This document shows, one piece after another, positions 1,581 to 20,052 of a DNA stretch of 20,052 bases. The stretch comes from a virus. The stretch's first letter is position 1, and each line of letters opens with the position of its first letter. The notes under the pieces were generated by a model. That model saw only the letters and a program-made list of their open reading frames with translations, had not been told where the DNA came from and made no database searches. A program made the translations under genes and the position numbers. The stretch is taken from IMG/VR virus record IMGVR_UViG_3300028837_001600, positions 1 to 20,052 of that record; one strand, 5' to 3'.

Positions 1581-4500
1581 ATGGGTTGGCTTTCAACTTA
1601 CGGATATAGGCAAACAGTTCCTTTGAAGCGTGTTGATGGAGCTGTAGAAGATTATCAGATGAAGCTAACCGTGCATAAAGGCACGGGTGATTCATTAGAG
1701 GATGTTGTCTATCTCAAAGACCACGCTTTATCCTGGACTGGCACAGTTCCTAATGACCTTCGTTTTACTAACCTTGCGGGAACCGAATTAAAATACTGGA
1801 TTGAATCCTCAGATGCTAATACCGCTACAGTCTGGATAAAGTTTGACTCCATAGAAACTACGGATACGGACTTCTATGTCTATTATGGAAAGGCAGACGA
1901 TACTACAACAAGCAATGGAGCTGATACCTTCCCAGAGTTCTTCGACCATTTCCCTGGAGATGCTATAGACACCAATAAATGGGATGTAGGTGGAACAGGT
2001 AGTAATGTTGTTTCGGATTCAAAAGTCAAGGTTTTATCTTCAGCTACTAATGGGAAGAGATACATAGCGTCAAAAACTGCCTTTGGGCAGGGTTATGCGT
2101 TAAGAGGATATGCAAAGCTCTACAACACCGATGCTGCTTGGCGTTACGCTTGGTTTGGTTTTGGGAAAGATGGGGATACTGACTATTCTTCGATAATGGA
2201 TTACAACGATGCTACAACCGCTTATCGTTATTGTAGGACTTTAACGGATGGTAATCATACTATAGATTCCACTCTATCGCCTGATGAGATTTATCATACA
2301 TTTACCATAATGAGGGTAAGCAACGACCTGTGTAAGTTTCAACAGGATGATGGCAGTCTCATAAGCATTGCTACCAATGTTCCTGATGGAGACTTAAAGA
2401 TTGCCCTTCAAGCAAGGAACGCTGGGGATTATACAGAGTGTGATTGGCTACTTATCAGAAAGTATGTCTTTCCAGAGCCAACTTGGGGAACTTGGGGAAG
2501 TGAGGAGAGTTCAGCGCAAGAACACATTAAGATTGTTACTGAATCAATCAATTTTTCTGACACAATGGTTAAAGAGCAGGACTTAAAAAGAGTTCTAACA
2601 GAAAGTATTCAATCAGTGGATTCAATAGTTACATCTGCTAAAAAATTCTTCAGAGTTTTTAGTGACACTACACAAATGACAGACACAGTAGCTAAGTTGA
2701 CGCACAAAGTAGTGGTTGAAAGTTTTACAGCAATTGACAACGCAATGAAGTCAGTACGAAAAGTAGTGACAGATGCTTTAACTATGGCTGATAGTTTTAT
2801 CAAGCAGACACGAAAAACGCTACTAGAACCTGTGACAATAGTAGACACAACGGTAACTTTAAAGAAATACTTTCGTGTGCTTACAGAATCTACACGAGTT
2901 GTTGATACTGTGCGTAAGTCCTTTAGTAAAATGCTGTTTGATTTAGTAACAATGCGTGACGTGATTATCAAATCAATATACAGAATTTTTAATGAAACAA
3001 TTACTTTTACTGATCATGCCTGGAGAACATTCAGTATTCTTTTGTTTGAAGCTATTCAGATAACAGATTCAATGGTTACACCCTTTAAAAAGTTCTTTAA
3101 AGTGTTCAAGGATACTTCTCAAATGGCAGATGAAATAGTAAAGGTAACATCAAGAACGCTGGTTGATGGTATGACAATTATCGATTCTTCTATGAGATTG
3201 GTAAGGAAGGTGTTTGCTGATGCATTGGTAGTGTCTGACAGTCTTTTCAAACAAATACGAAAGGCATTGCCTGAGTCTGTAACATTGACTGATTCAATTT
3301 CATCTTTGAAAAGTTTCTTCCGTGTTTTTGTTGATCCTTTTGTTGTAATTGACAGTGTAATGCACACTAATAAGTTCTTTAGAGTGTTCACTGAGCCAAT
3401 AGAAACAGTGGATACTTTGAAAAAGTTACTCAACAAAGTGTTGATAGACAATGTCACTGCTATCGACTCAACCATTAGGCATTTCTTTAAGGTTCTCAGT
3501 GAAACAGCTGTTGTTGTCGATGCTGTTGAAAAAGTTAGTTCTTTTGGAAGAACATTTATTGACAATGTGAGTATAGCTGATAAGTTCATAAGAGGAAGAG
3601 TGTTTGCTGAATTGTTTACATTGGCTGAAACACAAAACAAACGGTACGAATACTATAACAGTGGTTTGGATGACAGTAGTCTTACTTTCTATGGAGCAAA
3701 TAGTTGGGCTGCTCAGACATTTACTACTACTGATGCTCATAAGATTACCAGTATTAAAATTAAATTGCTTCGTGTGGGCAACCCGGGAACGATAACAATA
3801 AGTATCCAAGGCACTGATGGTAGTGGTCATCCCGATGGAAATGAGAAGTGTTCTGGAACATACAATGGAGATTTGTTAACAGATGATGAAAATGGAGACG
3901 AGTATGTAATAACGTTGGGTGATGGTTATAATCTTTCTGCTAACACTAAATATGGTATTGTTGTCAAGGCATTGAACGGTTCTTTAGGTAATTGCATTGC
4001 TTGGCGATTTGATGCTACTGTTCCTCTGTACGGAGAAGGGAACTATGAGACCACTGTTGATGGAGGCTTAAATTGGACAGCAAATACTGATAGAGACTTT
4101 GTATTTGAAGAGTGGAGTCTTTCTTCTGGATTTAGAAAACAGATTGGCAGAGCATTTTTAGAACCGATTATTATTACAGTACAACTTCTTGGCTTCGCAG
4201 GAAGGTACGTTAAAGCATTTGTTGACTCAGTGTTAGTAACGGAAACTGTTAAACTTTCGAAGACATTCATTAGAACACTTTCTGAACACATTGGAATCGT
4301 TGAGTCAATAACGACAGTCAAAAAACTTGCTCGAATGTTTTCTGACACACTACATGTTGTTGACAGTGTTACTGTGATTAAGGCATTGAGAAAGGTCTTC
4401 ACTGACGTTGTTGACGCTTTTGAATCTGTTGAAATTAAGGTAACGAGTTTTATACCCCAATTTTTTGAAAAGATTTTTACTGAGTCAATGCAAGCAACAG

Positions 4501-5372
4501 ACAATATTAAAAGAGTCATGGTGAGATCTTACAGTGAGATTTTTAACATTGTCGATACTGTCATCTTTACTAAGTCTTTTACTAGGGTCTTTGCAGATGT
4601 AATTGATGTAATTGAAAATGTTGGAAAAAGAACCAGAAAAGTTGTTCTTGAGGCAGTGAATTTAACAGACAAATTGATAAGAGGAAGAGTCTTTTCTGAG
4701 GTATTCAACATTACTGATGCACTTGTCAAGAGGTCTTACAGAGTATTTTCTGACATTATCAATGTGTCTGATTGGTGGAGTATACACCATGTTCTTATTG
4801 TCTTTACTGATCACATAAACACTACTGATTTGGTGGTAACAACTAAAAAATTCTTTAGGGTACTCGTTGACTCTTTGACTACCATTGATTCTGCAATTAG
4901 ACGTACAACAAAATTACTCATTGATCATGTTGATGTCACCGATATTTCTCTTCCTGTCAAGGGGTTCTTTAGGATCTTTACTGACGCGATAAATGTTGTT
5001 GACATTTATGCTCGTACTCAAACTCTTGGTAGAACATTGACTGAGTCATTGACTGTTGTTGACTCAGCAATAAGACAGACAATCAAGGTGGTGACTGAAA
5101 ATGTATCATTGACGGATAAGATAGTCAGAGGCAGGGTGTTTACTGACACATTCACAGTGATAAGCAGAGTTGTCAAACAAACATGGAAATACACATTTTC
5201 TGAATTGGTAGTGGTGACTGAAACTTACACAGGTGTGATTTGGATTGCCATCGCTAAATTGTTTGCAAAAGTATACGAGCTCCGATTCATTGTACCTACA
5301 TACTCGTTTAAATTCTTGATGTACGAGGCAAAAGAAGGAATGAAGACTAAATTTAAATTCTTAAAGAAATAG
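1581..5372 (+). CDS. Giant repeat-containing tail adhesin (DUF2341 + lectin-like head)
   Basis: A protein of 1263 residues. Residues about 45-115 resemble DUF2341 (LKYWIESSDANTATVWIKF, then FYVYYGKAD), followed to about 312 by a concanavalin-like domain ending in the characteristic IRKYVFPEPTWGTWGS. Residues 317-688 and 851-1220 are about 39 degenerate copies of an 18-20 residue unit, roughly (R/K)-V-F-T-E-S-h-T-V-V-D-S-h-h-K. Between the blocks (about 689-850) sits a beta-sandwich-like insert with AAQTFTT near the start and DGGLNW near the end. There is no signal peptide or membrane segment, and the C-terminus is basic. DUF2341 and lectin-like modules commonly bind carbohydrate, so a receptor-binding fibre is likely. 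The start has GAGGT five bases upstream, inside a hairpin. Virion location is inferred from context only. Confidence 0.7.
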   Translation: MGWLSTYGYRQTVPLKRVDGAVEDYQMKLTVHKGTGDSLEDVVYLKDHALSWTGTVPNDLRFTNLAGTELKYWIESSDANTATVWIKFDSIETTDTDFYVYYGKADDTTTSNGADTFPEFFDHFPGDAIDTNKWDVGGTGSNVVSDSKVKVLSSATNGKRYIASKTAFGQGYALRGYAKLYNTDAAWRYAWFGFGKDGDTDYSSIMDYNDATTAYRYCRTLTDGNHTIDSTLSPDEIYHTFTIMRVSNDLCKFQQDDGSLISIATNVPDGDLKIALQARNAGDYTECDWLLIRKYVFPEPTWGTWGSEESSAQEHIKIVTESINFSDTMVKEQDLKRVLTESIQSVDSIVTSAKKFFRVFSDTTQMTDTVAKLTHKVVVESFTAIDNAMKSVRKVVTDALTMADSFIKQTRKTLLEPVTIVDTTVTLKKYFRVLTESTRVVDTVRKSFSKMLFDLVTMRDVIIKSIYRIFNETITFTDHAWRTFSILLFEAIQITDSMVTPFKKFFKVFKDTSQMADEIVKVTSRTLVDGMTIIDSSMRLVRKVFADALVVSDSLFKQIRKALPESVTLTDSISSLKSFFRVFVDPFVVIDSVMHTNKFFRVFTEPIETVDTLKKLLNKVLIDNVTAIDSTIRHFFKVLSETAVVVDAVEKVSSFGRTFIDNVSIADKFIRGRVFAELFTLAETQNKRYEYYNSGLDDSSLTFYGANSWAAQTFTTTDAHKITSIKIKLLRVGNPGTITISIQGTDGSGHPDGNEKCSGTYNGDLLTDDENGDEYVITLGDGYNLSANTKYGIVVKALNGSLGNCIAWRFDATVPLYGEGNYETTVDGGLNWTANTDRDFVFEEWSLSSGFRKQIGRAFLEPIIITVQLLGFAGRYVKAFVDSVLVTETVKLSKTFIRTLSEHIGIVESITTVKKLARMFSDTLHVVDSVTVIKALRKVFTDVVDAFESVEIKVTSFIPQFFEKIFTESMQATDNIKRVMVRSYSEIFNIVDTVIFTKSFTRVFADVIDVIENVGKRTRKVVLEAVNLTDKLIRGRVFSEVFNITDALVKRSYRVFSDIINVSDWWSIHHVLIVFTDHINTTDLVVTTKKFFRVLVDSLTTIDSAIRRTTKLLIDHVDVTDISLPVKGFFRIFTDAINVVDIYARTQTLGRTLTESLTVVDSAIRQTIKVVTENVSLTDKIVRGRVFTDTFTVISRVVKQTWKYTFSELVVVTETYTGVIWIAIAKLFAKVYELRFIVPTYSFKFLMYEAKEGMKTKFKFLKK
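2529..3644 (+). repeat. Adhesin repeat block A: about 20 degenerate 18-20 residue units
   Basis: Successive units include KVVTDALTMADSFIKQTR, KTLLEPVTIVDTTVTLKKY and FRVLTESTRVVDTVRKSFS: an acidic residue near position 5-6, hydrophobic-T/V-hydrophobic, a conserved D near position 11, then a basic or polar tail. A higher-order copy is visible: units 3-10 (2649-3095) align one by one with units 11-18 (3096-3542) at 447 bases, for example FSDTTQMTDTV against FKDTSQMADEI. The DNA copies have diverged, so the expansion is old. Confidence 0.85.
4131..5240 (+). repeat. Adhesin repeat block B: about 19 further units
   Basis: The same unit continues after the beta-rich insert, for example FRVLVDSLTTIDSAIRRTT, RTLTESLTVVDSAIRQTI and KVVTENVSLTDKIVRG. 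The signature DK(F/L/I)(I/V)RGRVF recurs three times in the protein (DNA near 3580, 4670 and 5115) and is followed by similar units, which indicates duplication of multi-unit segments. The block ends where the sequence turns into a non-repetitive basic C-terminus. Confidence 0.82.
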
Positions 5373-5418: not shown

Positions 5419-5772
5419 ATGGAAGAAACATTAGAGATCAGAGGGCGTACAACAACTGCGATAATTTTTCAATTACTGGCTGATGATGAGTCGGTAGATT
5501 TGACACTTTATGACGTAATTTTTTACATGCGGGACAAACATAAAAAGACATATGTGTATGCAACGACTGATGACGATCCAGCATTGGAGTTTGTCACTCC
5601 TAAAACGAGTGGCAAATTGACTTTTACTCCCCCTGATGATACTGTGTTTTTGACAAGAAATTCTCCTTATTATGCGTACTGCGTAATAATAAGTACTGTC
5701 GACGGGACAAGTTTTGCTATTCCGGGGGAGAGTGAAGCAAAAATCAATGTACGGGAGTCGTTTGTGAAATGA
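5419..5772 (+). CDS. Small beta-rich phage structural protein, BppU N-terminal-like
   Basis: The 117-residue product opens with an IRGRTTTAIIFQL strand, then has alternating beta segments: DLTLYDVIFYMRD, GKLTFTPPDD, YYAYCVIISTVDG and a final EAKINVRES. This order (polar opening, dLt-V-F-hR, GkhtF, Y-Y-hhI-DG) resembles the Ig-like N-terminal domain of BppU-type upper baseplate proteins (DUF2479). The family match is by eye. No Shine-Dalgarno precedes ATG 5419, but a strong promoter does. Its stop overlaps the next start as ATGA (5769-5772), so the two are coupled. It could equally be a small decoration or neck protein. Confidence 0.55.
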   Translation: MEETLEIRGRTTTAIIFQLLADDESVDLTLYDVIFYMRDKHKKTYVYATTDDDPALEFVTPKTSGKLTFTPPDDTVFLTRNSPYYAYCVIISTVDGTSFAIPGESEAKINVRESFVK

Positions 5773-6842
5773 GAAGGCCCTCAGCTATCTGGAAATTTGA
5801 CGGAACGAGTTACACGAATTTAACGCAAAGTAATTACCAAGGTACAGTGTTTGACTTTATTGCAACGACTGATGATATTTTTTACATTGGGTTTACGTCC
5901 CGAATTATTGGGATGGTCATAGGAATTACGACTATAGGGTGTTATTCAGGTCTTTCGTTCAAACAGTGGGAAGGAGATGATTGGGTTGAAGTTGTACCAA
6001 TTGAGACGTATGATTTCAGTAGTGCAGGGGTATTTACGTTTGATGTAAACACGAAGACAGATATACGGAGTTTTACAAGTACGGCTCCGCATGATGATAA
6101 TGGTGGAATTGAACCCCCTGACTCTGTTTCTAGGTATTGGTTGCGAGTTAGTGCTTCTGGAGTGACTACGAAGGCGGTCATTAGTTCTGTGGACATAATT
6201 CCGTATGTACTTTATGCCACTCCTTCTGATGTTGCTGATTATTTGTCATTTAAAACTTCGTTTGATGCTGAGACGATTCCTACAGCATTTATGGTTGAGG
6301 ACATGTTGAAAAGGGCAGAAGGAGTAATTGACAGAAAGACTTTGAGAAGTTGGCGTCTAAATTATGCAGAAGAGGAGTTTCAGGAGTTTAATATCAACGG
6401 GATAAAGTTACTTCATTACCCTATAAGAGATGTATATTCAGCTGAGATTTGGGACGGAGGTGCCTTTGAAGCTCTTACCTTTGGTAGACAACACGACTAT
6501 TTTGTGAACAAATCAATTGGAATGCTCTATTTTTCGAGATATTTTATGCTACCTGCGAGATTTGCGTACCCGATTCCTGGATGGAGATGGGGATTCGGTG
6601 AATTTACGTACCCTATAAAAATAAAGTATACTTGGGGCGAGGACTCTAGGAGATCAAAGGAGTTTCCTATGGTTCAGGACATCGCATTAAAAATGGTTGC
6701 AATTGACCTTGTTCAGACGAGTGATTATACTTCATTGTTTGCCAGTGGAGTTGACAGAGTTGCTCTTACAGAAAAGGCACGCAATTGGAGAGAGGAAATA
6801 AATAACGATTTAGAGGATCTCAAACGGTTGTTCGTGTTTTAA
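5769..6842 (+). CDS. Head-tail connector-like protein with an extra beta-rich N-terminal domain
   Basis: A protein of 357 residues. Residues 1-145 are rich in W, Y, T and beta strands (IWKFDGTSYTNLT near the start, QWEGDDWVEV, then RYWLRVSASGVTTKA), a pattern seen in phage beta-sandwich modules. Residues about 150-357 resemble gp6-like head-tail connectors: YATPSDVADYL, then a helix MVEDMLKRAEGVIDRKT, a beta region (IKLLHYPIRDVYSAEIW), and a C-terminal helix. In known phages such proteins join the portal ring to the tail stopper. The start overlaps the upstream stop by four bases. The next gene follows after 11 bases. The connector call rests on the helical fragment and genomic position before the tail-completion and tube genes; the N-terminal fusion is unusual. 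Confidence 0.55.
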   Translation: MRRPSAIWKFDGTSYTNLTQSNYQGTVFDFIATTDDIFYIGFTSRIIGMVIGITTIGCYSGLSFKQWEGDDWVEVVPIETYDFSSAGVFTFDVNTKTDIRSFTSTAPHDDNGGIEPPDSVSRYWLRVSASGVTTKAVISSVDIIPYVLYATPSDVADYLSFKTSFDAETIPTAFMVEDMLKRAEGVIDRKTLRSWRLNYAEEEFQEFNINGIKLLHYPIRDVYSAEIWDGGAFEALTFGRQHDYFVNKSIGMLYFSRYFMLPARFAYPIPGWRWGFGEFTYPIKIKYTWGEDSRRSKEFPMVQDIALKMVAIDLVQTSDYTSLFASGVDRVALTEKARNWREEINNDLEDLKRLFVF

Positions 6843-6853
6843 AAAGGAGAATA

Positions 6854-7297
6854 ATGTCTGTACCTTCAGAAGTATTAAAGGATTTGCTCAAAAGTAATTG
6901 GTTGGAAGCTAACGTTGTACAACCTGAAATTGTTGATGTGAACCTTTCAACAGAAGCCATAGGTAGGTACAATTTTAGGACGAAGGACTATGCATTTATT
7001 CTTGCCGGAAGAGAAGGAGAAGTAGAGACGTACAGGAACGTTGCGTATGCTGACAATTCATTTGGCATTGACATTCAGATTGTTACTGCAAATTCTCGTG
7101 AGAGGCTTTATGAATTGAGGAGTGAAATTAGGCGGATATTGAGAGTAAAGCGTCTTACTCCTGGTACTCCTGATTATCAACTAATTAGATATTTGGGATT
7201 TAACGAAGCCGTATTGGAAGAATTAAACGTTTGGAAGGGAACAATTCGGGCACGGTTTGAGGTCGTCGGCCTTTACGTTTCAAAAGGATGGGAATGA
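6854..7297 (+). CDS. Probable tail-completion/terminator protein
   Basis: This 147-residue protein follows AAGGAG at a good distance. It starts with a helix (VLKDLLKSNWL), continues with a central alternating beta-alpha region (NSFGIDIQIVTANSRERL, ELRSEIRRILRV), and ends in a beta strand (ARFEVVGLYVSKGWE). This alpha-beta pattern and its place between connector and tail-tube genes fit tail terminator or neck proteins that cap the tail tube. No diagnostic motif is visible. Its stop codon overlaps the start of the homing endonuclease by four bases, so the endonuclease has been placed precisely at the gene's end without damaging it. Confidence 0.5.
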   Translation: MSVPSEVLKDLLKSNWLEANVVQPEIVDVNLSTEAIGRYNFRTKDYAFILAGREGEVETYRNVAYADNSFGIDIQIVTANSRERLYELRSEIRRILRVKRLTPGTPDYQLIRYLGFNEAVLEELNVWKGTIRARFEVVGLYVSKGWE

Positions 7298-8130
7298 AAC
7301 TTTCTGAGTTACAAAAAGCTAAAATATCTAAGACAGTAAAAGAAAATTGGCGAAATTTGAGTGTTGAGTCTCGAAGTAGACTTTGTCAAGCTATTAGTGA
7401 AGGAACTAAGAGAGGAATGCAAAGACCAGGTGTAAAAACGAAACTACAGAAACAAGGTAAGTTAAATTGGGAAAATCCTAACTATCGAAAGACAGTTAGT
7501 GAGAAAGTAGCTGCAAAGACGAGAGAGAGATGGAAGAACCCTGAATTTTATGCAAAGCACGTGGAACAAATAAGAAGTTTAAATTATGATCCGAACATAG
7601 TTGAGAGAAGAGCTAAGAAGATAAAAGAAAGATGGGCAGATCCAGAATATCATAAAAGGGTAGCTATGAAATTAAGAAAGCTTGGACAGACCCCGGAATT
7701 TAGAGCAAAAATGAGCCAAATTAACGCTAAAAGATGGCAGGATCCCGTATGGGCTAAAAGACAAAGGGAAGCTACGAAACTTAGATGGCAAGACTCAATA
7801 TGGGTTCAAAAAACAATGCAGGCGAGAAAAGTTAAGCCCACCAAATTGGAAGAAGAATTTAATGCGCTTCTCCAACAATATTTTCCGAATCAATGGGAAT
7901 ACGTAGGTAATGGGCAATTAATCGTTGGTTATAAGAATCCCGATTTTTGGGATGGAGAGCATAAGTTAATTGAGATTTATGGCGACTATTGGCATAAGGG
8001 TGATAATCCCCAGAAGAGAATTAATCATTTTAGGAAATATGGTTATGAATGTTTAGTAATTTGGCAATACGAATTGGAGGACACTGGAATTGTGAAGGAT
8101 AAAATTTTTCAGTTTGTAAGTAACACATAG
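7294..8130 (+). CDS. Free-standing homing endonuclease, Vsr-like EDxHD family
   Basis: ATG 7294 is preferred over the in-frame ATG 7288 because AAGGA (7284-7288) sits five bases before it; this gives 278 residues. The N-terminal two thirds carry about six short basic repeats beginning (N/R)W-x-(D/N)-P (NWENPNYR, RWKNPEFY, RWADPEYH, RWQDPVWA), the kind of helical DNA-contact repeats found in phage homing endonucleases. The last 95 residues form a Vsr/PD-(D/E)xK-like nuclease: KLEEEF, FPNQWEYVGNG, NPDFW, LIEIYGDYWH, then GYECLVIWQYEL. This matches the EDxHD family typified by I-Bth0305I. It cuts an intron-less or intergenic target to spread itself. A related copy lies at 17964. It ends just before a promoter that serves the tail tube. 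Confidence 0.8.
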   Translation: MKLSELQKAKISKTVKENWRNLSVESRSRLCQAISEGTKRGMQRPGVKTKLQKQGKLNWENPNYRKTVSEKVAAKTRERWKNPEFYAKHVEQIRSLNYDPNIVERRAKKIKERWADPEYHKRVAMKLRKLGQTPEFRAKMSQINAKRWQDPVWAKRQREATKLRWQDSIWVQKTMQARKVKPTKLEEEFNALLQQYFPNQWEYVGNGQLIVGYKNPDFWDGEHKLIEIYGDYWHKGDNPQKRINHFRKYGYECLVIWQYELEDTGIVKDKIFQFVSNT

Positions 8131-9761: not shown

Positions 9762-9972
9762 AGAAGTTTTAGATAGAGATTGGTTAGAGCTACAATACTC
9801 GACGAGACAGATGACAGTGATGGAGATAGCAGATAGATTTAATATTGTACCAGCAGTAATTTACGAAATGATGCATAAACTTGGGATACCAGTTCGTAGT
9901 AGTGGTGAATCGCGAAGAGGAAGTTGTGAACAGAATCTTGGAGTTATAAATGGAAGAAGTATTAAGGATTGA
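9754..9972 (+). CDS. Small helix-turn-helix protein between chaperone and tape measure
   Basis: GTG 9754 follows GGAG (9743-9746) by seven bases and overlaps the end of the frameshift extension by eight bases. The 72-residue product contains a clear HTH: LQYSTRQMTVMEIADRFNI, then a recognition helix AVIYEMMHKLGIPVRSSG. This L-x2-Y-x-x-x3-hTh-x-EIA ... GIPhRS pattern is typical of HTH modules attached to HNH and other homing endonucleases, so it may be a remnant of one or a small DNA-binding protein. An HTH protein is unusual here. Its last 23 bases overlap the tape measure start. Assignment to a role is not possible from sequence. Confidence 0.6.
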   Translation: MVEEVLDRDWLELQYSTRQMTVMEIADRFNIVPAVIYEMMHKLGIPVRSSGESRRGSCEQNLGVINGRSIKD

Positions 9973-10993
9973 GGTCAGTGAGGCAGGTGCAAAGCCTGGT
10001 GGTGTTGCTCCTTCTACAGAAGGGAAAAGGTTACCCAGTGGTGCTCCTGCAAGAATTCCAGACAAATTGGTGAAGGACACTGGTAACATTGCAAAGAACA
10101 CTGCGATTTCAGGAGCAGCGGGAGCAGGAATGGCAAAGATGATGGGGAAAGGAGGTGCAATTGGAGCTGCGATTGGTGTAGGTGTAGGTGCTCTTGCTTT
10201 TCTTGTTGGAGCAGTCAAACGGAGTAAGATTTTTTCTGCATTCATGAACTCTTTATTGACGATATTTGGTGCAGTAGTTGACATACTTTTAATTCCCCTC
10301 ATACCAATGCTCGTAAGAGTATTAAATGCCGCGCTGGGCTTTTTTCGTAGCGTCTCAACAAAGGGTCTTTGGGAGACATTGGCGGCGGGAGGTTTGGATT
10401 GGGAGCGCATTCTTCGCATGATTTTCCCAGTCATTCCACCTGCTGGTGTACTTGATTGGCTTTTTGAGAAAATTGGTTGGGAGGATATTCTTCGTGCGAT
10501 TTTCCCAATCATTCCACCCAGAGGTGTACTTGACTGGCTATTTGACAAAGTGTCTTTGGAAAAGATCTTAATGTTTATTTTTACTCCTATCGCTGTTGTA
10601 AGACTCTTAGATTGGTTGTTTACAAAGGTTGATCTACACACTATGTTAACATTTCTTTTTCCCATTCAGGTTGGTGTGCTCAAGCTTTTAGAGCATCTTT
10701 TTCCTTTTAGAATAAATGCGAATGATATTTTAGATAAAGTGTTTTCAACTGCAGGAAATATTTGGGATTGGCTTAAAGGTCTTGTAGGTTTACAGGCAGG
10801 CACTCCTTATGTTCCAAGAGACATGTTGGCACTTCTTCACAGAGGGGAGGCAGTGATTCCTGCATCTCAAAATGTGTTTAATTTCAACCAGTCATTTACG
10901 ACTGCTGCTCCTGCAGGTTATCTTGCAGGGAAAGAGTTGGCAAGTGGGTTTGAATCAGATCTTTCAGGGGCTCTTTTGAGGATAGGGATCTAA
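9950..10993 (+). CDS. Tape measure protein (short)
   Basis: A 347-residue protein with GGAG (9940-9943) six bases before ATG 9950. A hydrophobic Gly/Ala-rich segment (GAIGAAIGVGVGALAFLVGAV, about 68-88) and a second one (about 97-125) are typical membrane-active stretches. Residues 154-259 are four tandem 26-28 residue repeats. Near the C-terminus, GTPYVPRDMLALLHRGEAVIPASQN is a classical tape-measure signature. The protein sets tail length and enters the host envelope during DNA injection. At about 1.5 angstrom per residue it would specify a tail near 50 nm, short for a siphovirus. It is preceded by the chaperone and followed by distal-tail genes, in canonical order. Confidence 0.85.
   Translation: MEEVLRIEVSEAGAKPGGVAPSTEGKRLPSGAPARIPDKLVKDTGNIAKNTAISGAAGAGMAKMMGKGGAIGAAIGVGVGALAFLVGAVKRSKIFSAFMNSLLTIFGAVVDILLIPLIPMLVRVLNAALGFFRSVSTKGLWETLAAGGLDWERILRMIFPVIPPAGVLDWLFEKIGWEDILRAIFPIIPPRGVLDWLFDKVSLEKILMFIFTPIAVVRLLDWLFTKVDLHTMLTFLFPIQVGVLKLLEHLFPFRINANDILDKVFSTAGNIWDWLKGLVGLQAGTPYVPRDMLALLHRGEAVIPASQNVFNFNQSFTTAAPAGYLAGKELASGFESDLSGALLRIGI
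10409..10726 (+). repeat. Tape-measure repeats: four units of 26, 26, 26 and 28 residues
   Basis: Units start at 10409, 10487, 10565 and 10643: ILRMIFPVIPPAGVLDWLFE, ILRAIFPIIPPRGVLDWLFD, ILMFIFTPIAVVRLLDWLFT and MLTFLFPIQVGVLKLLEHLF. Units 1 and 2 are also very similar in DNA (for example both carry GGTGTACTTGA), so that duplication is recent. A possible fifth start (ILDKVF) lies at 10727. Whole-unit gain or loss keeps the frame and changes tail length. Confidence 0.88.
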
Positions 10994-11406
10994 TGGCACT
11001 TTCTGTAATATTGACGCATCCTGATGGAAGTCCTGCTTACAGTATCATGGTTGACTTTTTGGAGCATGGGTTAATACGTTTACCCACACAGGTAGCATTT
11101 CCTGGAGGTCTTGAAGAAGGTGAGTTTCCTGAAATATTTTACTTAGATTTGGGAATGATGACAGAACAAATCACAGTTCGAGGAACTATTGATGCAATTA
11201 CAACTCCGACAAAAGCTAACTTAAGAGATGCGGCGGCTCTTTGGTACAAAGAATCATTAGAAGAATCTCCTACGTACATAAAATTGACAGTTGGTACAGG
11301 TGAATCGTACTATGGTGGATTTAAGACAATGGAGTTTAGACAGGAAGCTGCAAAAGAGGACAGGTGGAATTTTAGTTTTATGTTTCTTGTCAAAGAAAAA
11401 GTATAA
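10993..11406 (+). CDS. Distal tail/minor tail protein (Dit-like)
   Basis: A protein of 137 residues whose ATG overlaps the tape-measure stop by one base (TAATG). It is beta-rich with one central helix (TKANLRDAAALWYKES), preceded by EQITVRGTIDAITTPT and followed by YYGGFKTMEF and a terminal WNFSFMFLV. Proteins of this pattern directly after the tape measure form the distal tail ring that joins the tube to the hub. It ends in another TAATG overlap with the hub gene, so the three are translationally coupled. No diagnostic motif was seen; position carries most of the weight. Confidence 0.55.
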   Translation: MALSVILTHPDGSPAYSIMVDFLEHGLIRLPTQVAFPGGLEEGEFPEIFYLDLGMMTEQITVRGTIDAITTPTKANLRDAAALWYKESLEESPTYIKLTVGTGESYYGGFKTMEFRQEAAKEDRWNFSFMFLVKEKV

Positions 11407-14400
11407 TGGCAAAGGCAGGCTGTAAACTAGAGTATTTTACTGATCCCGATTGGATTACTGAAAACAATCTCATTGGTCCTAAGTACATTGATGCAATTAG
11501 AGGGAGAGCACGAGTTCTTGAAGTGTTGTTGAGTAATCCACAGAATGCGAGAGAGTCAACATACACAATGTACAAAAAAATTCGTCTTACTGAATGGCGC
11601 ACAAGTAAGGTGGTCTTTGTAGGTAGAGTAGATTCGGTTGAACCTTTGTGGAATAGCAATTATGGTCAGGTGTTGAAATTGGTTGCACGTGACTACATGG
11701 CTGAGCTATTTGATAGATTTATATCAACTGATTACTCAGGTACTGCACGAAAAAGAAGCGTATTGATTGCTCAAATTATTTCTGACTATGTGTATGCAGG
11801 AAATCTGACAACAGACATTGATGCATCAGGATCTTCGGAAACAGTCACAATGGATTATTCAAATTCACAAATGAGAGTGAGTGAAGCTATTGACAAGTTG
11901 GCACGTGAGGATCCTTGGGATGACACACCTACAGGTTATGGGTATGATTATTGGGTTGATGATTCTCAGGTGTTCCATTACAAAAAGAGAGGGACAAGAC
12001 CTGCAGGTGGGCCTTCAGCAAATGGTTTGACTCTTGAGTACAGAGGAACAGCAGGAAATCAAACACTTCTTGTTCTTCATGACTATACTTTTCCCACTGC
12101 AATAAAGGAAACGATCACACGTGTAACTGTCAGAGGTACTGACAGTGATGGGGCGTCAGTTTCTCACACAGAGATTGATGCAGATTTGGAAAGTTCACTT
12201 CATACAATCAAAGAATTAATTGATGAAACGTATGGTGTGACAGATTTGACGTATTGCCAAACAAGGTCAAAAGCACTTCTTTCTGTACTCAAAGGGGAGA
12301 TTGTGAGAGCAAACATAAAAATTATAGGTTTTCCGAGGTATAAGATTGATTCTACTTGGTACACCCCAAGGGCAGGTGAATTGATCAGAGTCAAATGTAG
12401 TTCTAAGTCAATTGACGCTGATTTTATGATTCTTGAAGTTAAGTACGGAGAACCCGCAGGAATTACTACTTTGAAATTACTTTCTACTGATTTTGGGTGG
12501 GGGTTTTCACCGTTTGAATTGGAGTCAATATTTTCTGGAATTTACCGTGAACAAGGTCAGGTTAGCGCCAGAATGGGACCTATTCCTTCAACTCCTCCGA
12601 CCCCTACTCCGTGGTCGGCAGATAATATAACACCAGCTGTTGACATCAATCCTGATGGTTCTTCATACATATATTTCATAGTTGAGGTTCCAAGAGTAGA
12701 TGTGGCAGATGACTATAATTTGCAGTTTCGTGTTAAAAACGCTACGAATTGGGAGCTTATCACAGTAGATCAGACTGCATCTGGAAATCCTATAGCAAAG
12801 ACACCATCGGTGAAGGGTGGAGAAACTTATGAGTTTCGTGTTAGAAGTCATACACTAGCGGGAGTTTATTCGGATTGGTCAGCAATCGTTGAGAAGGCGG
12901 CAGTTGCAGACACGACATCCCCAGGCGCATGCTCGGCATTAGCAGCGGAAGGAAGCTATGGAACAATATTCCTTGATTGGGTAAATCCTTCAGATGCTGA
13001 TCTTAAGCACATTGTAATTTGTTGTTCAGACACGAATGATAGAAGTGCTGGAAGTGATATTGCGATAACAAGTGCAAATTACTTTGGCCACTCCGGCCTT
13101 GGTGATCTCGTGACTAAGTATTATTGGGTAAAAGCCGTTGACCTCTCGGGAAATATTGGACCTTGGTTTCCAACAGGAGATACTAATGGAGTTTCTGGCA
13201 CAACGCTAGACATTCTTGATCCCGACACAACACCCCCAGCAGTTCCAACAGGACTAGTGCTAACAACCGGGGTGGAAGAGGATTCAGACGGACATCAGCA
13301 AGTTTGGCTTAAAGCAGACTGGGATGATAATGCCGAATCAGACTTTGCCTCTTACACAATCAGATACAAGTCTACTGGAGGTGATTACTCCTACATAGTA
13401 GTTCCAGGCAAGACAAGCTCTGCATGTAAGATAGCTCCAGTGGTAGGTAATACACTCTATTACGTTTCGATTTCTGCTGCTGACAAATCCTCGAATTATA
13501 GTGACTATTGCACAGAGGAGACCAAAACTACAGCAAAAGATACAACCGCACCTGACCCTCCTACAGATCTTGCAGCAGTAGCCGGGTTTATGACGATTTA
13601 TCTGAATTGGACAAACTCTGCAGATGCTGATTTAAAATACATCGAAATAAGAAGATCAGATACCACAGACAAAGAACATGCTTCGAAGAAGTCTTTTGAG
13701 GTTTCAGGGGAGTCCCTTGCTGACGATATAAACGCTTATAGCGCTCAAAGATATTATTGGGCAAGAGCATTTGATACCTCAGGAAATAGTTCATCGTGGA
13801 GTTCTAGAGTCGATGCGACAACACAACAGGTTGATTATACCGACATTAATGACTTTGCGGTACAAGCCTCGAAAATATGGACCAATATACCAATTTTAGC
13901 AAGTGATTCTTGGACAGACAACTCACCAAGTGCGGGTTATGTTGCTTGGAATGCTCATAAACTTTATTATGGAGGTGTAGAATATTCAATTACCGCAAGT
14001 AATACCAATCTTAAATACATCTATTGGTTGAATGGTGCTTCATCGTATACAAAGAGTGATACGAATCCGACTTTAGATGATGGGGACTTCATAGTTGCGG
14101 TTAATATAGCCGGTAGCCATGATCTAGCTTGGAATGCCATTGCCAACCAAGTGATAGGTACCGCGTACATTCAGGATGCTGCAATTGTTAACGCAAAGAT
14201 TCATGATCTTAGTGCGGACAAAATTGATGCCGGAATCTTACAGTCTACGAATTGGGGAGCTTCAGCTGGGTCCCAATTTGTTCTTAGCGATGGTACGTTT
14301 AAATTGGGAGGAAGCTCTGCTCCGAAGTTAAGTTGGAACGGCACAGCTCTAAATATAACTGGTGTTATTACTTTTACAGCTGGCAGTGAGGCAGACTATA

Positions 14401-16124
14401 GCTACATAACAGGAACCAAGCCTCCAGCAGATGCTGATAACACCTTGGCAAACCCTCAATCTTACGCCTGGATAACTGGATCTAAGCCTCCAACAGATGC
14501 TGAAGCGAATCCCGATTATATTCACAGCACTTACATAAGTGCCACTGAGATACAATCTCCTGCTATATCTGGTAACACTGGTTATTTTTCGTTAGCATTT
14601 AAAGTAGGAATCGACGGTGTAGTTATCGATGGGGTTAACAAACTCATCAAGTCGTCAAATTATAACGAAGTTGGCGAGGTGGGATGGCAGATAGACAATG
14701 CAGGCAATGCGCATTTTTATGGTGGGGTTGTTGCTGCTGGGCTGTTAACAGGTGATATCGCAGTTGCAAGAATAACGGCTCAAGGAGCAAATGCAATCAA
14801 TGCAGGAGTAATTTCAATTGCTGCAAATAGATTAAACATTTCAGGTGAGACTACATTTGCACCTGGGTACGATCCGTCAGATGCTATTCAAGATGTTGTT
14901 GAGTTGCTTGATTCGAACGCATCTTCAGGACAGAAAGATGTGGTGTTGGAAGACAATGCAGCAGCAGCTAGGTATGATGTAGGTGATGAGATTGAATTGA
15001 AGGATGACTCAAACAGTGAAACGTGTGAGATTGCTTCAATTGCCAGTGCCACTCTTACAATGGTGAATATTCTTACATATTCGTACACTGTTGTTGCAAA
15101 TGCAAAGGTTACTCTGTTTGGAGCTGCTGACAACATTAACAATGGCGTCACAACAATTGACGGTGGGTTAATAACAACAAACACCATTTTAGCTAATGCA
15201 ATAACAACCAGTACATTGACTTCAAGGGTTATAACATTGGGTTCGGGAGGAAAGTTTGTTACTGGACCCGCTGGAACCAATAGAATTGAAATTACAAGCG
15301 TCGAAGTTGCGGGTTATACCAGTGGTAATACAAAGCAGTTTTATATGGATGCTACAACTGGAAAAGCATACGCAGGTGGTGGAGCTGTTGTACTAGATGA
15401 GGAAGGTATAACAGTAATCGGTGACTGTTTTTGTAGATATTGGAGTTCAGACCCCCATCCAATAGGGTCCATCTGTAGTCTTTTTGATGACTTTTGTATC
15501 CATTCGGTTGAAGACGTAGAAGGATGGGATAACAAAACCCTTTGGTTGAGAGGGGGTTTAAATACTAATCTTGATGCGCATGAGCAAATGTGGATAACCT
15601 CCTATGGAGGAAATATAGATATAACCGCCGATAGCGTACTTTATCTAGAAAGCGGGAATGGTGATCTGTTCCTTCACCCTGGGGGTACGAGTCCTGACGT
15701 TATACCTACCTCCCTGAATTTTGATTTTGGGAGTAGTTCCTCATACTGGCGACACATAGAATGTGTTGACATAAATTATCACTGCCCAATGAAAATACCC
15801 AAGGGAGCTTTGGGGAAGCTTAAGAACATCCAATCCAAAAAAGAAGGAGGGATTGAAATCATAGATAAAGATACCTTACCCGTGGAGATTCTTAATATTC
15901 CAGCTGTAGAGGATTATAATAAAGCGAAGAGAACTTATCAGAAGCTTTTAAGACGATGGGAAGGCAAGATTGAAGGAGGTCATCCGAAACCGGGACCGAA
16001 ACCTGTAGAATATAAACCACAAGAAGCGGTCAGTTCGTTAAATCTCTTTGGCTTAGTCCTAGCGTCTGTACAGGAGCTAACCAGTAAAGTCGAGGCAATC
16101 GAAAAGATATTAGATGTTAGATAG
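11406..16124 (+). CDS. Tail hub/tip protein with FnIII-like domains and fibre-like C-terminus
   Basis: A protein of 1572 residues. Residues 1-375 form a hub-like region (FVGRVDSVEP, LKLVARDYMAELFDRF, TRVTVRGTDSDG, LKLLSTDFGWG) as in Tal/gp27-type baseplate hubs. Residues about 400-810 hold four FnIII-like modules, two with nearly the same text (PSDADLKHIVICCSDT and SADADLKYIEIRRSDT) joined by DTT(S/A/P)P linkers. Residues about 810-1010 carry AAIVNAKIHDLSADKI-type segments and two copies of YITGTKPPADAD / WITGSKPPTDAE. The rest is beta-rich. The end (SSLNLFGLVLASVQELTSKVEAIEKIL) is a coiled coil like the tip of S74-type fibre chaperone domains, although the catalytic part is not evident. It should close the tail tip and present host-binding domains. 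Confidence 0.75.
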   Translation: MAKAGCKLEYFTDPDWITENNLIGPKYIDAIRGRARVLEVLLSNPQNARESTYTMYKKIRLTEWRTSKVVFVGRVDSVEPLWNSNYGQVLKLVARDYMAELFDRFISTDYSGTARKRSVLIAQIISDYVYAGNLTTDIDASGSSETVTMDYSNSQMRVSEAIDKLAREDPWDDTPTGYGYDYWVDDSQVFHYKKRGTRPAGGPSANGLTLEYRGTAGNQTLLVLHDYTFPTAIKETITRVTVRGTDSDGASVSHTEIDADLESSLHTIKELIDETYGVTDLTYCQTRSKALLSVLKGEIVRANIKIIGFPRYKIDSTWYTPRAGELIRVKCSSKSIDADFMILEVKYGEPAGITTLKLLSTDFGWGFSPFELESIFSGIYREQGQVSARMGPIPSTPPTPTPWSADNITPAVDINPDGSSYIYFIVEVPRVDVADDYNLQFRVKNATNWELITVDQTASGNPIAKTPSVKGGETYEFRVRSHTLAGVYSDWSAIVEKAAVADTTSPGACSALAAEGSYGTIFLDWVNPSDADLKHIVICCSDTNDRSAGSDIAITSANYFGHSGLGDLVTKYYWVKAVDLSGNIGPWFPTGDTNGVSGTTLDILDPDTTPPAVPTGLVLTTGVEEDSDGHQQVWLKADWDDNAESDFASYTIRYKSTGGDYSYIVVPGKTSSACKIAPVVGNTLYYVSISAADKSSNYSDYCTEETKTTAKDTTAPDPPTDLAAVAGFMTIYLNWTNSADADLKYIEIRRSDTTDKEHASKKSFEVSGESLADDINAYSAQRYYWARAFDTSGNSSSWSSRVDATTQQVDYTDINDFAVQASKIWTNIPILASDSWTDNSPSAGYVAWNAHKLYYGGVEYSITASNTNLKYIYWLNGASSYTKSDTNPTLDDGDFIVAVNIAGSHDLAWNAIANQVIGTAYIQDAAIVNAKIHDLSADKIDAGILQSTNWGASAGSQFVLSDGTFKLGGSSAPKLSWNGTALNITGVITFTAGSEADYSYITGTKPPADADNTLANPQSYAWITGSKPPTDAEANPDYIHSTYISATEIQSPAISGNTGYFSLAFKVGIDGVVIDGVNKLIKSSNYNEVGEVGWQIDNAGNAHFYGGVVAAGLLTGDIAVARITAQGANAINAGVISIAANRLNISGETTFAPGYDPSDAIQDVVELLDSNASSGQKDVVLEDNAAAARYDVGDEIELKDDSNSETCEIASIASATLTMVNILTYSYTVVANAKVTLFGAADNINNGVTTIDGGLITTNTILANAITTSTLTSRVITLGSGGKFVTGPAGTNRIEITSVEVAGYTSGNTKQFYMDATTGKAYAGGGAVVLDEEGITVIGDCFCRYWSSDPHPIGSICSLFDDFCIHSVEDVEGWDNKTLWLRGGLNTNLDAHEQMWITSYGGNIDITADSVLYLESGNGDLFLHPGGTSPDVIPTSLNFDFGSSSSYWRHIECVDINYHCPMKIPKGALGKLKNIQSKKEGGIEIIDKDTLPVEILNIPAVEDYNKAKRTYQKLLRRWEGKIEGGHPKPGPKPVEYKPQEAVSSLNLFGLVLASVQELTSKVEAIEKILDVR

Positions 16125-16639: not shown

Positions 16640-16822
16640 ATGGACTTAGAGAAAGAGTTACAAAGTATACAGACTAAGACGCAAGAAGCTGCGAAACAGT
16701 TGAATGCAATCGAAGAAAGAAAGCAAGGGATCCTTCAAGAAATATTACGACTTGATGGAGAAGCCAGAGCTATTGTCAGATTGTTGGAACAACAAAAAAA
16801 GAAAGTAGAGGACAAAAAATGA
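16640..16822 (+). CDS. Small coiled-coil protein
   Basis: ATG 16640 is six bases after a perfect AGGAGG (16628-16633); an in-frame TTG at 16613 lies upstream of that site and is not used here. The 60 residues are almost all charged or hydrophobic helix (ELQSIQTKTQEAAKQLNAIE, then EILRLDGEARAIVRLLEQQK) with heptad-like spacing and a lysine-rich end. No known family is recognised. Its stop overlaps the protease start as ATGA (16819-16822), so the pair is probably translated together. It could be a spanin-like or scaffold-type partner of the protease, which is speculation. Confidence 0.65.
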   Translation: MDLEKELQSIQTKTQEAAKQLNAIEERKQGILQEILRLDGEARAIVRLLEQQKKKVEDKK

Positions 16823-17427
16823 AGGCAAATGATGAACGAACAGAGACTTACCTAGGTGTTATTTCTACAGATCCTGACAAAAGGGAGCTTCGAGATAAGG
16901 GAATTCTTTTATTAGTTGAGGAGATTGGAGAAACCATTGTCCGTGAATTTATCAGGGATTTGTCAATCATTAAACTTCGCAAAAATTTGAAAGAAGTCAC
17001 AATTAAAATTTGTTGCCCTGGAGGAAGTGTAGAGGAGGGAATGGGAATGATTAGAATGATAAAAGAGATACAGAAGATGAAGATTAAGGTGAAAGGTGTA
17101 GTATATGGGCAGGCAATGAGCATGGGTTTTTTGTTGCTTCAGGCTTGTGATGAACGTATTATGGGAAGCGGTGACATTCTCATGGCACACGGTGTTGTAA
17201 CGCACACTCAAGGTGACACCAAAAATATAGAGGCAGAACGAAAGGTTATGACTGACATCAGGGCATGGTTCGCTGTTGAAGTGGCAAAACGAAACACATC
17301 AAAAGATGAAACTTATCACGAGCCAGGATTTTGGGTGGAAGTATTAAGTGATAGTACACCACAATTTTATACTGCTCAAGAAAGTTTTGAAATGGGGCTT
17401 ATTGACAAAATTGAAGGAGACAATTGA
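16819..17427 (+). CDS. ClpP-like serine protease
   Basis: A 202-residue protein with the ClpP fold signature: EVTIKICCPGGSVEEGMGM (oxyanion region), then VYGQAMSMGFLLLQACDERI with nucleophile Ser 101, and DILMAHGVV with His 124. The C-terminus ends QFYTAQESFEMGLIDKIEG as in ClpP. The third catalytic residue is not obvious: the Asp that normally sits two residues before the F of (R)DRF aligns with Pro 181 here, though Asp 178 is near. Phages often carry ClpP-like prohead proteases beside the portal and capsid genes; this one lies after the tail genes, next to a coiled coil and a holin-like gene, so another role is possible. Start fixed by ATGA overlap with the preceding gene. Confidence 0.8.
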   Translation: MKANDERTETYLGVISTDPDKRELRDKGILLLVEEIGETIVREFIRDLSIIKLRKNLKEVTIKICCPGGSVEEGMGMIRMIKEIQKMKIKVKGVVYGQAMSMGFLLLQACDERIMGSGDILMAHGVVTHTQGDTKNIEAERKVMTDIRAWFAVEVAKRNTSKDETYHEPGFWVEVLSDSTPQFYTAQESFEMGLIDKIEGDN

Positions 17428-17963: not shown

Positions 17964-18563
17964 ATGGTACGAAGAAGTTATTTTGGCGAAGGTAACCCAT
18001 TTTTTGGTAAGAAACATACTGATGTATCAAAAGAACAAATGTCTGAGTCTCAAAAAAGAAGGAATAAAAAATTGGGTGTTCATGCAGGAGTTAATTTCAG
18101 AAGTAAAGTAGGTAACTTTTTTGGAGAAAATAATCCTATGTTTGGTACGACGAGGGTGTTTTCTAAAGAGACAAAGAAAAAAATGCGTGAATCAAGACTT
18201 AGATGGATTGAAAAGAATCCTGAAAAGTTTAATACAATAATCCAAAAGGCTTTACATGCTAGAATTAAAAGACCAAATAAATCAGAGCAGGAAGTGTTAG
18301 ACTTTTTAAACAGAGAGTTTCCCAACGAATGGAAATACGTAGGTGACGGTTCTTTAATGTTTGGTCGCTTTAACCCAGATTTCATTAACATTGATAAGAA
18401 TATTTTATTAGAGTTTTATGGGTACACGCATATCAATGAAGGTGATAGAAGAGATAGACGACTTGAGACTTTTCTTAAACATGGGTATCGTACTATTGAA
18501 ATTTGGTATTTTGAAATGAAAGATAAAGTTGTACTCAGAGATAGAATATTGTTTTATTGTTAA
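17964..18563 (+). CDS. Second homing endonuclease (NUMOD3 motifs + EDxHD-type nuclease)
   Basis: A protein of 199 residues. A stop codon lies just before ATG 17964, so the start is fixed although no ribosome site is seen. Residues 10-75 carry two NUMOD3-like DNA-binding motifs (NPFFGKKHTDVSKEQMSES and NNPMFGTTRVFSKETKKKM). The C-terminal domain parallels the endonuclease at 7294: FPNEWKYVGDGSL, NPDF, LLEFYGYTH, GYRTIEIWYFEM. The D before the WH in the other copy is Tyr here and the spacing differs, so its activity is uncertain. It sits between the lysis-like genes and RNase HII, whose ribosome site begins at its TAA stop. Confidence 0.75.
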   Translation: MVRRSYFGEGNPFFGKKHTDVSKEQMSESQKRRNKKLGVHAGVNFRSKVGNFFGENNPMFGTTRVFSKETKKKMRESRLRWIEKNPEKFNTIIQKALHARIKRPNKSEQEVLDFLNREFPNEWKYVGDGSLMFGRFNPDFINIDKNILLEFYGYTHINEGDRRDRRLETFLKHGYRTIEIWYFEMKDKVVLRDRILFYC

Positions 18564-18575
18564 GGAGTGTTAATT

Positions 18576-19211
18576 ATGGGTATTACAGCAGGTTGTGATG
18601 AGGTAAGTTATTCGCCCGTTCTTGCAGGTGATTGCGTTGTATGCGCATTGGTAAAAACGGGGAGTTTTGTCCAGGGTGTAAAAGATTCAAAGATGCTGTC
18701 ATCGGCAACTCGAAAGAAATTGTTTCCTCTGATTAAAAAGAATTCAATCTTTTCAGTTGTTAGTGCAACACCAGAGGACATTAACTATCGAGGGCTTTAT
18801 GAATCTAGGAATATGGCGATGATCGAGGCAATAAAGAGACTTAATGAGAAATTGGATTTTGTGATTACTGATGTTATTATTGATGGGCATTGGTCAAACA
18901 AATGGATTGATATTTTTGAGCATTCATGTAATTGTCGTGTTCGAGGGATGATTAGAGGTGATGAGTTGGTGTATGAAATTTCAGCTGCATCAATTGTGGC
19001 AAAAGTTTGTGTGGATCTACTTTATGACAAATATGAGAGGATGTACCCTGGATATGGCCTTAGCATCAATCATGGTACTCATTCAGCACAACACATACAG
19101 AAATTACAGGAGCAGGGTCCTACACCTATTCATAGGACAGGGTATCAAAAAGAATGGTGGAAAAGAATACTTGGTGACAAATATTTACATTTCATCAACA
19201 ATGAGGTATAA
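18576..19211 (+). CDS. rnhB: Ribonuclease HII, altered GRG motif
   Basis: ATG 18576 follows AAGGAG (18562-18567) by eight bases; an in-frame GTG at 18567 overlaps that site. The 211 residues cover the whole RNase HII fold: AGCDEV (Asp 8, Glu 9), VKDSKMLS, IIDGHW (Asp 103), RGDELVYEISAASIVAKV (Asp 129), YPGYGL, and GPTPIHRTGY. All four metal-binding acidic residues are present. The enzyme cuts RNA in RNA-DNA hybrids and removes single ribonucleotides. The usual GRG after DEV, which reads the ribonucleotide, is replaced by Ser-Tyr-Ser (11-13), and HKGY is HGTH. It likely serves primer removal, being next to the primase gene. Confidence 0.88.
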   Translation: MGITAGCDEVSYSPVLAGDCVVCALVKTGSFVQGVKDSKMLSSATRKKLFPLIKKNSIFSVVSATPEDINYRGLYESRNMAMIEAIKRLNEKLDFVITDVIIDGHWSNKWIDIFEHSCNCRVRGMIRGDELVYEISAASIVAKVCVDLLYDKYERMYPGYGLSINHGTHSAQHIQKLQEQGPTPIHRTGYQKEWWKRILGDKYLHFINNEV

Positions 19212-19989: not shown

Positions 19990-20052
19990 CTGTCTCTTAT
20001 ACACATCTGACGCTGCCGACGATCTACTCTGTGTAGATCTCGGTGGTCGCCG
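19990..20052. other. Nextera/Tn5 sequencing adapter (assembly artefact)
   Basis: CTGTCTCTTATACACATCT (19990-20008) is the Tn5 mosaic end; GACGCTGCCGACGA follows (20009-20022), then an 8-base index TCTACTCT (20023-20030), whose complement is AGAGTAGA, and GTGTAGATCTCGGTGGTCGCCG (20031-20052), the start of the reverse-complemented P5 tail. It is not phage sequence. Confidence 0.97.

Follow-up and report, generated by a model that had tools for sequence, protein, structure and literature searches.

Phage phi29 carries a head-attached fiber, gp8.5, which is encoded beside the gene for the major capsid protein (MCP). Head fibers are found on several phages, and the proteins that form them are often unidentified (phage 7-7-1; PMC12796354). 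Among archaeal viruses, a precedent for head-first contact with the host exists in HFTV1 (PMC9973310; PMC12494034), in which the capsid turrets (TBP and THP) include a carbohydrate-binding-like domain and are proposed to make the first host contact (PMC12494034). Here we describe, in a virus record of 20,052 bases (the window throughout), a gene built largely from one short repeat that may encode a fiber mounted on the capsid or neck.

Layout of the repeat-protein gene

The gene at 1581-5372 (1263 aa) encodes a putative virion fiber; this gene, the parts of it described here, and the genes that immediately flank it (3-1475, 5419-5772 and 5769-6842) all lie on the + strand. The N-terminal head region (residues 1-312; 1581-2516) is homologous to proteins of two other loci, with 42-47% identity to residues 1-303 of L002 (IMGVR 3300031539_000078) and 34% to vir524. 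It contains a DUF2341 domain (PF10102; residues 58-136; 1752-1988), which scored 70.5 bits, compared to a Pfam gathering cut-off of 23.4, and it is probably carbohydrate-binding.

Most of the remainder consists of repeats. A preliminary description of this DNA had counted about 39 copies of an 18-20 residue repeat, arranged in two blocks around a beta-rich insert, and scanning for the motif, and with an HMM of the unit, likewise gave 39 units (20 + 19). Block 1 comprises units 1-20 (residues 316-689; 2526-3647) and block 2 units 21-39 (residues about 857-1220; 4149-5240), while the insert between them proved to be a choice-of-anchor R domain (NF041539; residues 698-835; 3672-4085; 36.1 bits vs. 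an NCBIfam cut-off of 30). The same domain is joined to an 18-residue array in another virus, L012 (42.2 bits). Block 2 is followed by a C-terminal tail that is short (43 aa) and basic (net +7), and by the stop codon (5241-5372); in ten other loci that carry the unit, the arrays stop 28-66 residues short of the C terminus.

Conservation of the unit

The window units follow the consensus [RK]-V-[FL]-[ST]-[ED]-x-[IV]-[TN]-[VI]-T-D-[ST]-V and are spaced mostly by 18 (16 times) or 20 residues (13 times), with further spacings of 16 (three times), 19, 21 and 26. An acidic residue and an Asp had been described as nearly invariant, and this holds: 97% of the units have E/D at position 4 and 95% have D/E at position 10, while K/R occupies position 0 in 90%. 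The repetition is above chance by autocorrelation, which peaks at lag 18 in block 1 (z 6.6) and at lag 20 in block 2 (z 4.5) with no peak in the flanks, and by an independent profile. Because the unit HMM had been trained on the window units, we made another profile without them, drawing 160 units from ten other viral loci; this profile matched the window with 140 bits (E 5e-44), compared to 15 bits for the best of 1000 shuffles.

Units from those ten loci have R/K at position 0, L/F at 2, E/D at 4, I/V at 6, L/F/I at 8, D at 10, L/F/I at 12 and R/K at 14, with Thr/Ser at most odd positions, in strict alternation, and a 3-residue link at the end. The window units obey the same alternation, more variably. 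Among 199 units, 95-99% keep an acidic residue at positions 4 and 10, and in the other loci 94-97% of the units have a hydrophobic residue at 2, 6, 8 and 12. A pattern of this kind would correspond to one amphipathic beta strand per unit. The array showed no tandem repeat of the unit at the nucleotide level; thus, it is old and diverged. A rule of even spacing (parity) was considered and dropped: the non-18 spacings are 17 even to 4 odd in the window, but 13 even to 12 odd elsewhere.

Units 3-10 had also been aligned one for one with units 11-18. Over that whole stretch, the mean core identity (34%) is within the shuffled range, in which the 8-unit maximum averages 36% and reaches 43%, and units 8-10 show no excess identity. 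We did find an excess for units 2-7 (2586-2924) compared to units 10-15 (3033-3377), with core identity of 46% against a background of 24%, although 300 unit-order shuffles reach up to 47%. Thus, of the correspondence first proposed, an old 6-unit duplication is probable, if weakly marked. The motif DKxIRGRVF, which was said to recur three times, is found at nucleotides 3579, 4668 and 5115 as two exact copies and one that reads DKIVRGRVF.

Distribution of the unit

The view that the unit falls outside the named repeat families was borne out: neither Pfam nor NCBIfam gave a repeat family for the array above cut-off, and a PDB sequence search returned nothing credible. In PHROGs, the repeat corresponds only to phrog_12240 (unknown function, 387 positions), which matches the window (E 6e-14) as well as L115 (3e-9) and L029 (4e-5) and is most likely the same repeat; this entry has no function, structure or description and is not a curated repeat family. 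Literature searches on the unit or on DUF2341 phage fibers found nothing relevant.

A search for the unit in other phages had been suggested in the preliminary description, and the unit does occur in other viral contigs. It is carried by some fifteen or more uncultured tailed viruses besides that of the window, among them viruses with unrelated capsid proteins. By DNA pattern and consensus-array searches of IMG/VR, 18-residue arrays were found in L012, L029, L067, L115, L125, L129, L130, L132, L134 and others, and 20-residue forms of the unit in L138, L139, L145 and L148 (IMG/VR); L133, L142, L143, L146 and L147 are weak, less certain members, and two contigs were each counted as two loci (L115 = L128; L029 = L131). 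The DNA pattern search gave 119 matches, most of them chance. A search of 84,980 species genomes yielded just two loci. One, L125, is a contig that was binned as a Chthoniobacter MAG and bears phage head and neck genes; the other, L126, is a giant protein from Nitrosopelagicus (at least 3683 residues) in which SESISFSDS-type units are mixed with FG-GAP-like repeats. Since this search matches short peptides only, absence from species genomes is weak evidence. The consensus array found no credible carrier among annotated phages. A match on a Streptomyces sp. f51 plasmid was rejected as a 21-bp satellite read as protein, and one in MW202615, on the opposite strand to an annotated gene, was taken as chance.

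The array proteins of L125 and L029 are nearly repeat-only, and the gene just upstream in each is possibly lectin-like as we read its sequence; these upstream genes were unnamed by Pfam and NCBIfam at the thresholds used. The array proteins of L129, L130 and L131 share an N-terminal leader, MARLGR(A/S)..., which may serve to anchor them in the virion.

Predicted fold

A long beta-solenoid or a coil stalk had been suggested for the array, with a regular rod as support for a stalk; two structure predictions did not establish such a rod. An AlphaFold2 monomer model of block 1 from a 12-row alignment was repeating, all-beta and solenoid-like, at low confidence (pLDDT 55, pTM 0.46), but the monomer model of the more regular L125 array was mostly without structure (pLDDT 40). 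No helix was predicted in either model, so that the coil gains no support. The low confidence of both models would be accounted for if the chain folded only as an oligomer.

A Foldseek search with the block 1 model gave no PDB match at E 0.001 (best E 0.058). In VIA, where the comparison covers the fold families that VIA lists, this low-confidence model aligned to right-handed beta helices with Z up to 22, including Vag8, pertactin and the Sf6 tailspike (Z 17-22), none of which matches the window array in sequence; at this model quality, such scores would point only to a generic solenoid-like arrangement. The unit does not follow the pattern of a left-handed beta-helix (hexapeptide repeat), since its hydrophobics are at 2, 6, 8 and 12 and its acids at 4 and 10, rather than aliphatics at every six positions. 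The triple beta-spiral of the adenovirus shaft type repeats every 15 residues, with Gly/Pro conserved at a turn, and it too disagrees with the array, in which the period is 18-20 and the unit has no conserved Gly or Pro.

The gene slot and its neighbors

Upstream of the repeat gene, a glycosyltransferase (GT4) and a methyltransferase are fused in one gene, open at its 5' end (3-1475); their counterparts are separate genes in a relative of the window virus, L150 (see below). The array is followed by a partner gene of 117 aa (5419-5772), phrog_1084-like (E 5e-4) and 37% identical to the L150 gene in the same place, and by a probable head-tail connector (5769-6842), which resembles HVTV-1 gp125 (26%), phrog_17057 and the L150 connector (40%). 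Genes for the tail tube, the tail chaperone, a tape-measure candidate (9950-10993) and a J-like tail-tip protein (11406-16124) then follow, in an order that HVTV-1 shares. Because the window tail tube is closest to those of haloarchaeal viruses (31%), an archaeal host is possible for the window virus. Searching viral contigs with the connector gene gave no match.

In other loci, too, the array often lies between major-head genes and head-tail connector genes, with exceptions. In L125, the order is MCP (phrog_1005), array, head-tail adaptor (phrog_195) and neck (phrog_26), and MCPs of other families lie upstream in L012 (phrog_1357) and L002 (phrog_212). Pooled over loci, genes downstream of the arrays belong to head-tail adaptor, connector, head closure and Neck1 families and to phrog_1084 (five members), and genes upstream to several different major-head families, these pools being plain tallies rather than controlled enrichment. 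In L131, L132 and L138 the slot differs, in that other large proteins follow the array, and in vir524 the DUF2341 module belongs to a large protein whose gene comes after that for the neck, in the late part of the structural block. The partner also varies. In L067 the same-place partner is a clear BppU_N protein (E 1e-9; 38.8 bits vs. 23.1), the only locus in which this domain is clear, and there the array and partner pair precedes the protease and MCP genes. The window partner (5419-5769) had no match to PF10651 (BppU_N) or any other Pfam family at E 0.05.

Elsewhere in the window, a ClpP-like protease gene (16819-17427) and an RNase HII-like gene (18567-19211) adjoin the tail module. Two related genes (7288-8130 and 17964-18563; 36% over 127 aa) look like free-standing homing endonucleases, the former between a 147-aa gene and the tail tube gene, where L150 has 13 bases and thus an empty site. 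The tape-measure candidate contains 78-bp tandem units (10394-10573), and that of L150 has 12 copies of a 36-bp unit (12105-12547; GPAQWVWENVIK). The last ~62 bases of the window (19991-20052; CTGTCTCTTATACACATCTGACGCTGCCGACGA...GTGTAGATCTCGGTGGTCGCCG) we take to be Nextera adaptor read-through, and the end of a primase-like ORF (SYTHLTLPTIYSV) is an artifact.

Exchange of the slot protein between relatives

A tail tube search of the viral collection found a sole close relative, L150 (IMGVR 3300033149_003379), which is 68% identical to the window in the tail tube and about 58% in the J-like protein, in addition to the connector and partner identities given above. In contrast, its array-slot protein had no significant full-length match to that of the window. 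The L150 protein is Laminin_G_3-like (E 6e-4, below cut-off), has lag-20 periodicity (z 5.2) and ends in a basic tail. L002, which shares the N-terminal head region (DUF2341 E 6e-14), carries a third, 20-residue repeat. The L002 and L150 proteins occupy the same slot as the window protein, but their 20-residue repeats are not detectably homologous to the window arrays. A slot protein that is swapped while its neighbors are conserved behaves as host-recognition proteins do.

Upstream of the slot, L150 encodes an SU10-type MCP (the MCP of L150 and L151 is of haloarchaeal-virus type), with a beta-helix spike gene also between MCP and slot. A glycosyltransferase, a methyltransferase and a GDP-mannose 4,6-dehydratase are encoded at 338-3255 of L150, between MCP and connector, and the presence of sugar genes inside a structural block suggests modification of virion or host glycans. 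We also considered that the Thr/Ser residues of the window array might be glycosylated by the neighboring GT4 enzyme, on the basis of adjacency.

Proposed function and alternatives

We put at roughly 55% the probability that the gene encodes a modular adsorption fiber, which has a lectin-like head and an exchangeable beta stalk and is carried on the capsid or neck. The 39 units would form a stiff or extended stalk, with one amphipathic strand per unit and ladders of acidic and basic residues, and this stalk would hold the glycan-binding domains away from the particle. Such a fiber would contact host surface glycans first and reversibly, and the separate J-like tail-tip protein would then engage; stalk length and lectin type might be exchanged between viruses as modules. 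The fiber reading is supported by the DUF2341 and choice_anch_R domains, the unit in other viruses, the slot and the L150 swap, and it is weakened by the unfolded L125 model and by the carriers that differ in the slot (L131, L132, L138). The name adhesin, given in the preliminary description, is plausible for a protein in which these two domains flank the arrays and whose slot is swapped between relatives. Gene position and the head-first precedent of HFTV1 argue for mounting on the capsid or neck, not at the tail tip, whereas the resemblance of the partner to BppU_N, the late DUF2341 module of vir524 and the location of the MCP gene outside the window weaken that placement.

The same fiber might instead sit on the tail or baseplate, docked by a BppU_N-like partner as by the BppU N terminus in phage TP901-1. 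BppU_N is a baseplate domain in lactococcal phages, so the L067 partner fits this arrangement, as do the phrog_1084 match that the window partner shares with five pooled downstream genes and the vir524 module on its large, late structural gene. We nevertheless think a tail mounting less likely, since array and partner are beside capsid and connector genes and at a distance from those for the tape measure and J, and since the L067 pair, the one clear case of BppU_N, itself precedes protease and MCP. The array could also belong to an unexposed internal or assembly protein, a scaffold or a tape-measure-like length gauge, since it matches some tape-measure proteins in PHROGs weakly (E 3e-5 to 2e-3). 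However, these matches reflect short-repeat similarity, and another gene of the window is already the tape-measure candidate. An exposed protein would agree better with domains of lectin-like and choice-of-anchor type and with the swap seen in relatives, and we regard an internal role as most improbable. Scarcely more credible is low-complexity drift, in which the array would act as a spacer but have neither a defined fold nor any further function: the unfolded L125 model and a unit identity of only about 24% are what drift would give, but the near-constancy of the acids at 4 and 10, and of the hydrophobics at 2, 6, 8 and 12 elsewhere, is not.

If the capsid or neck fiber is the right reading for the window, it may extend further. 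Tentatively, and with some doubt, we propose that a 15-residue amphipathic strand with a 3-residue link ([RK]xLxExIxLxDxLx[KR]) makes up adsorption fibers mounted on the capsid or neck in many unrelated uncultured tailed viruses, possibly with archaeal ones among them, from a recurrent head-to-connector slot in which lectin heads and stalk repeats are exchanged. A recognizable repeat and slot would let head-fiber genes be found in metagenomes and tested, and would provide a curatable repeat family where libraries hold only one unknown PHROG.

Comparison with known systems

Within the libraries searched, both the repeat family and the gene slot look new, whereas repeat-built stalks as such are known. 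The turrets of HFTV1 are like the fiber proposed here in being capsid-borne and in a proposed role in first contact, a likeness for which the haloarchaeal-virus type of the window tail tube and connector, and of the L150/L151 MCP, provides context. In contrast to the putative window fiber, those turrets consist of gp30 and gp31, are mushroom-shaped and have a deacetylase-like domain. Likewise, gp8.5 of phi29, according to the title of a reference within PMC12796354, is a supercoiled triple helix-turn-helix repeat, whereas the window units are predicted to be beta.
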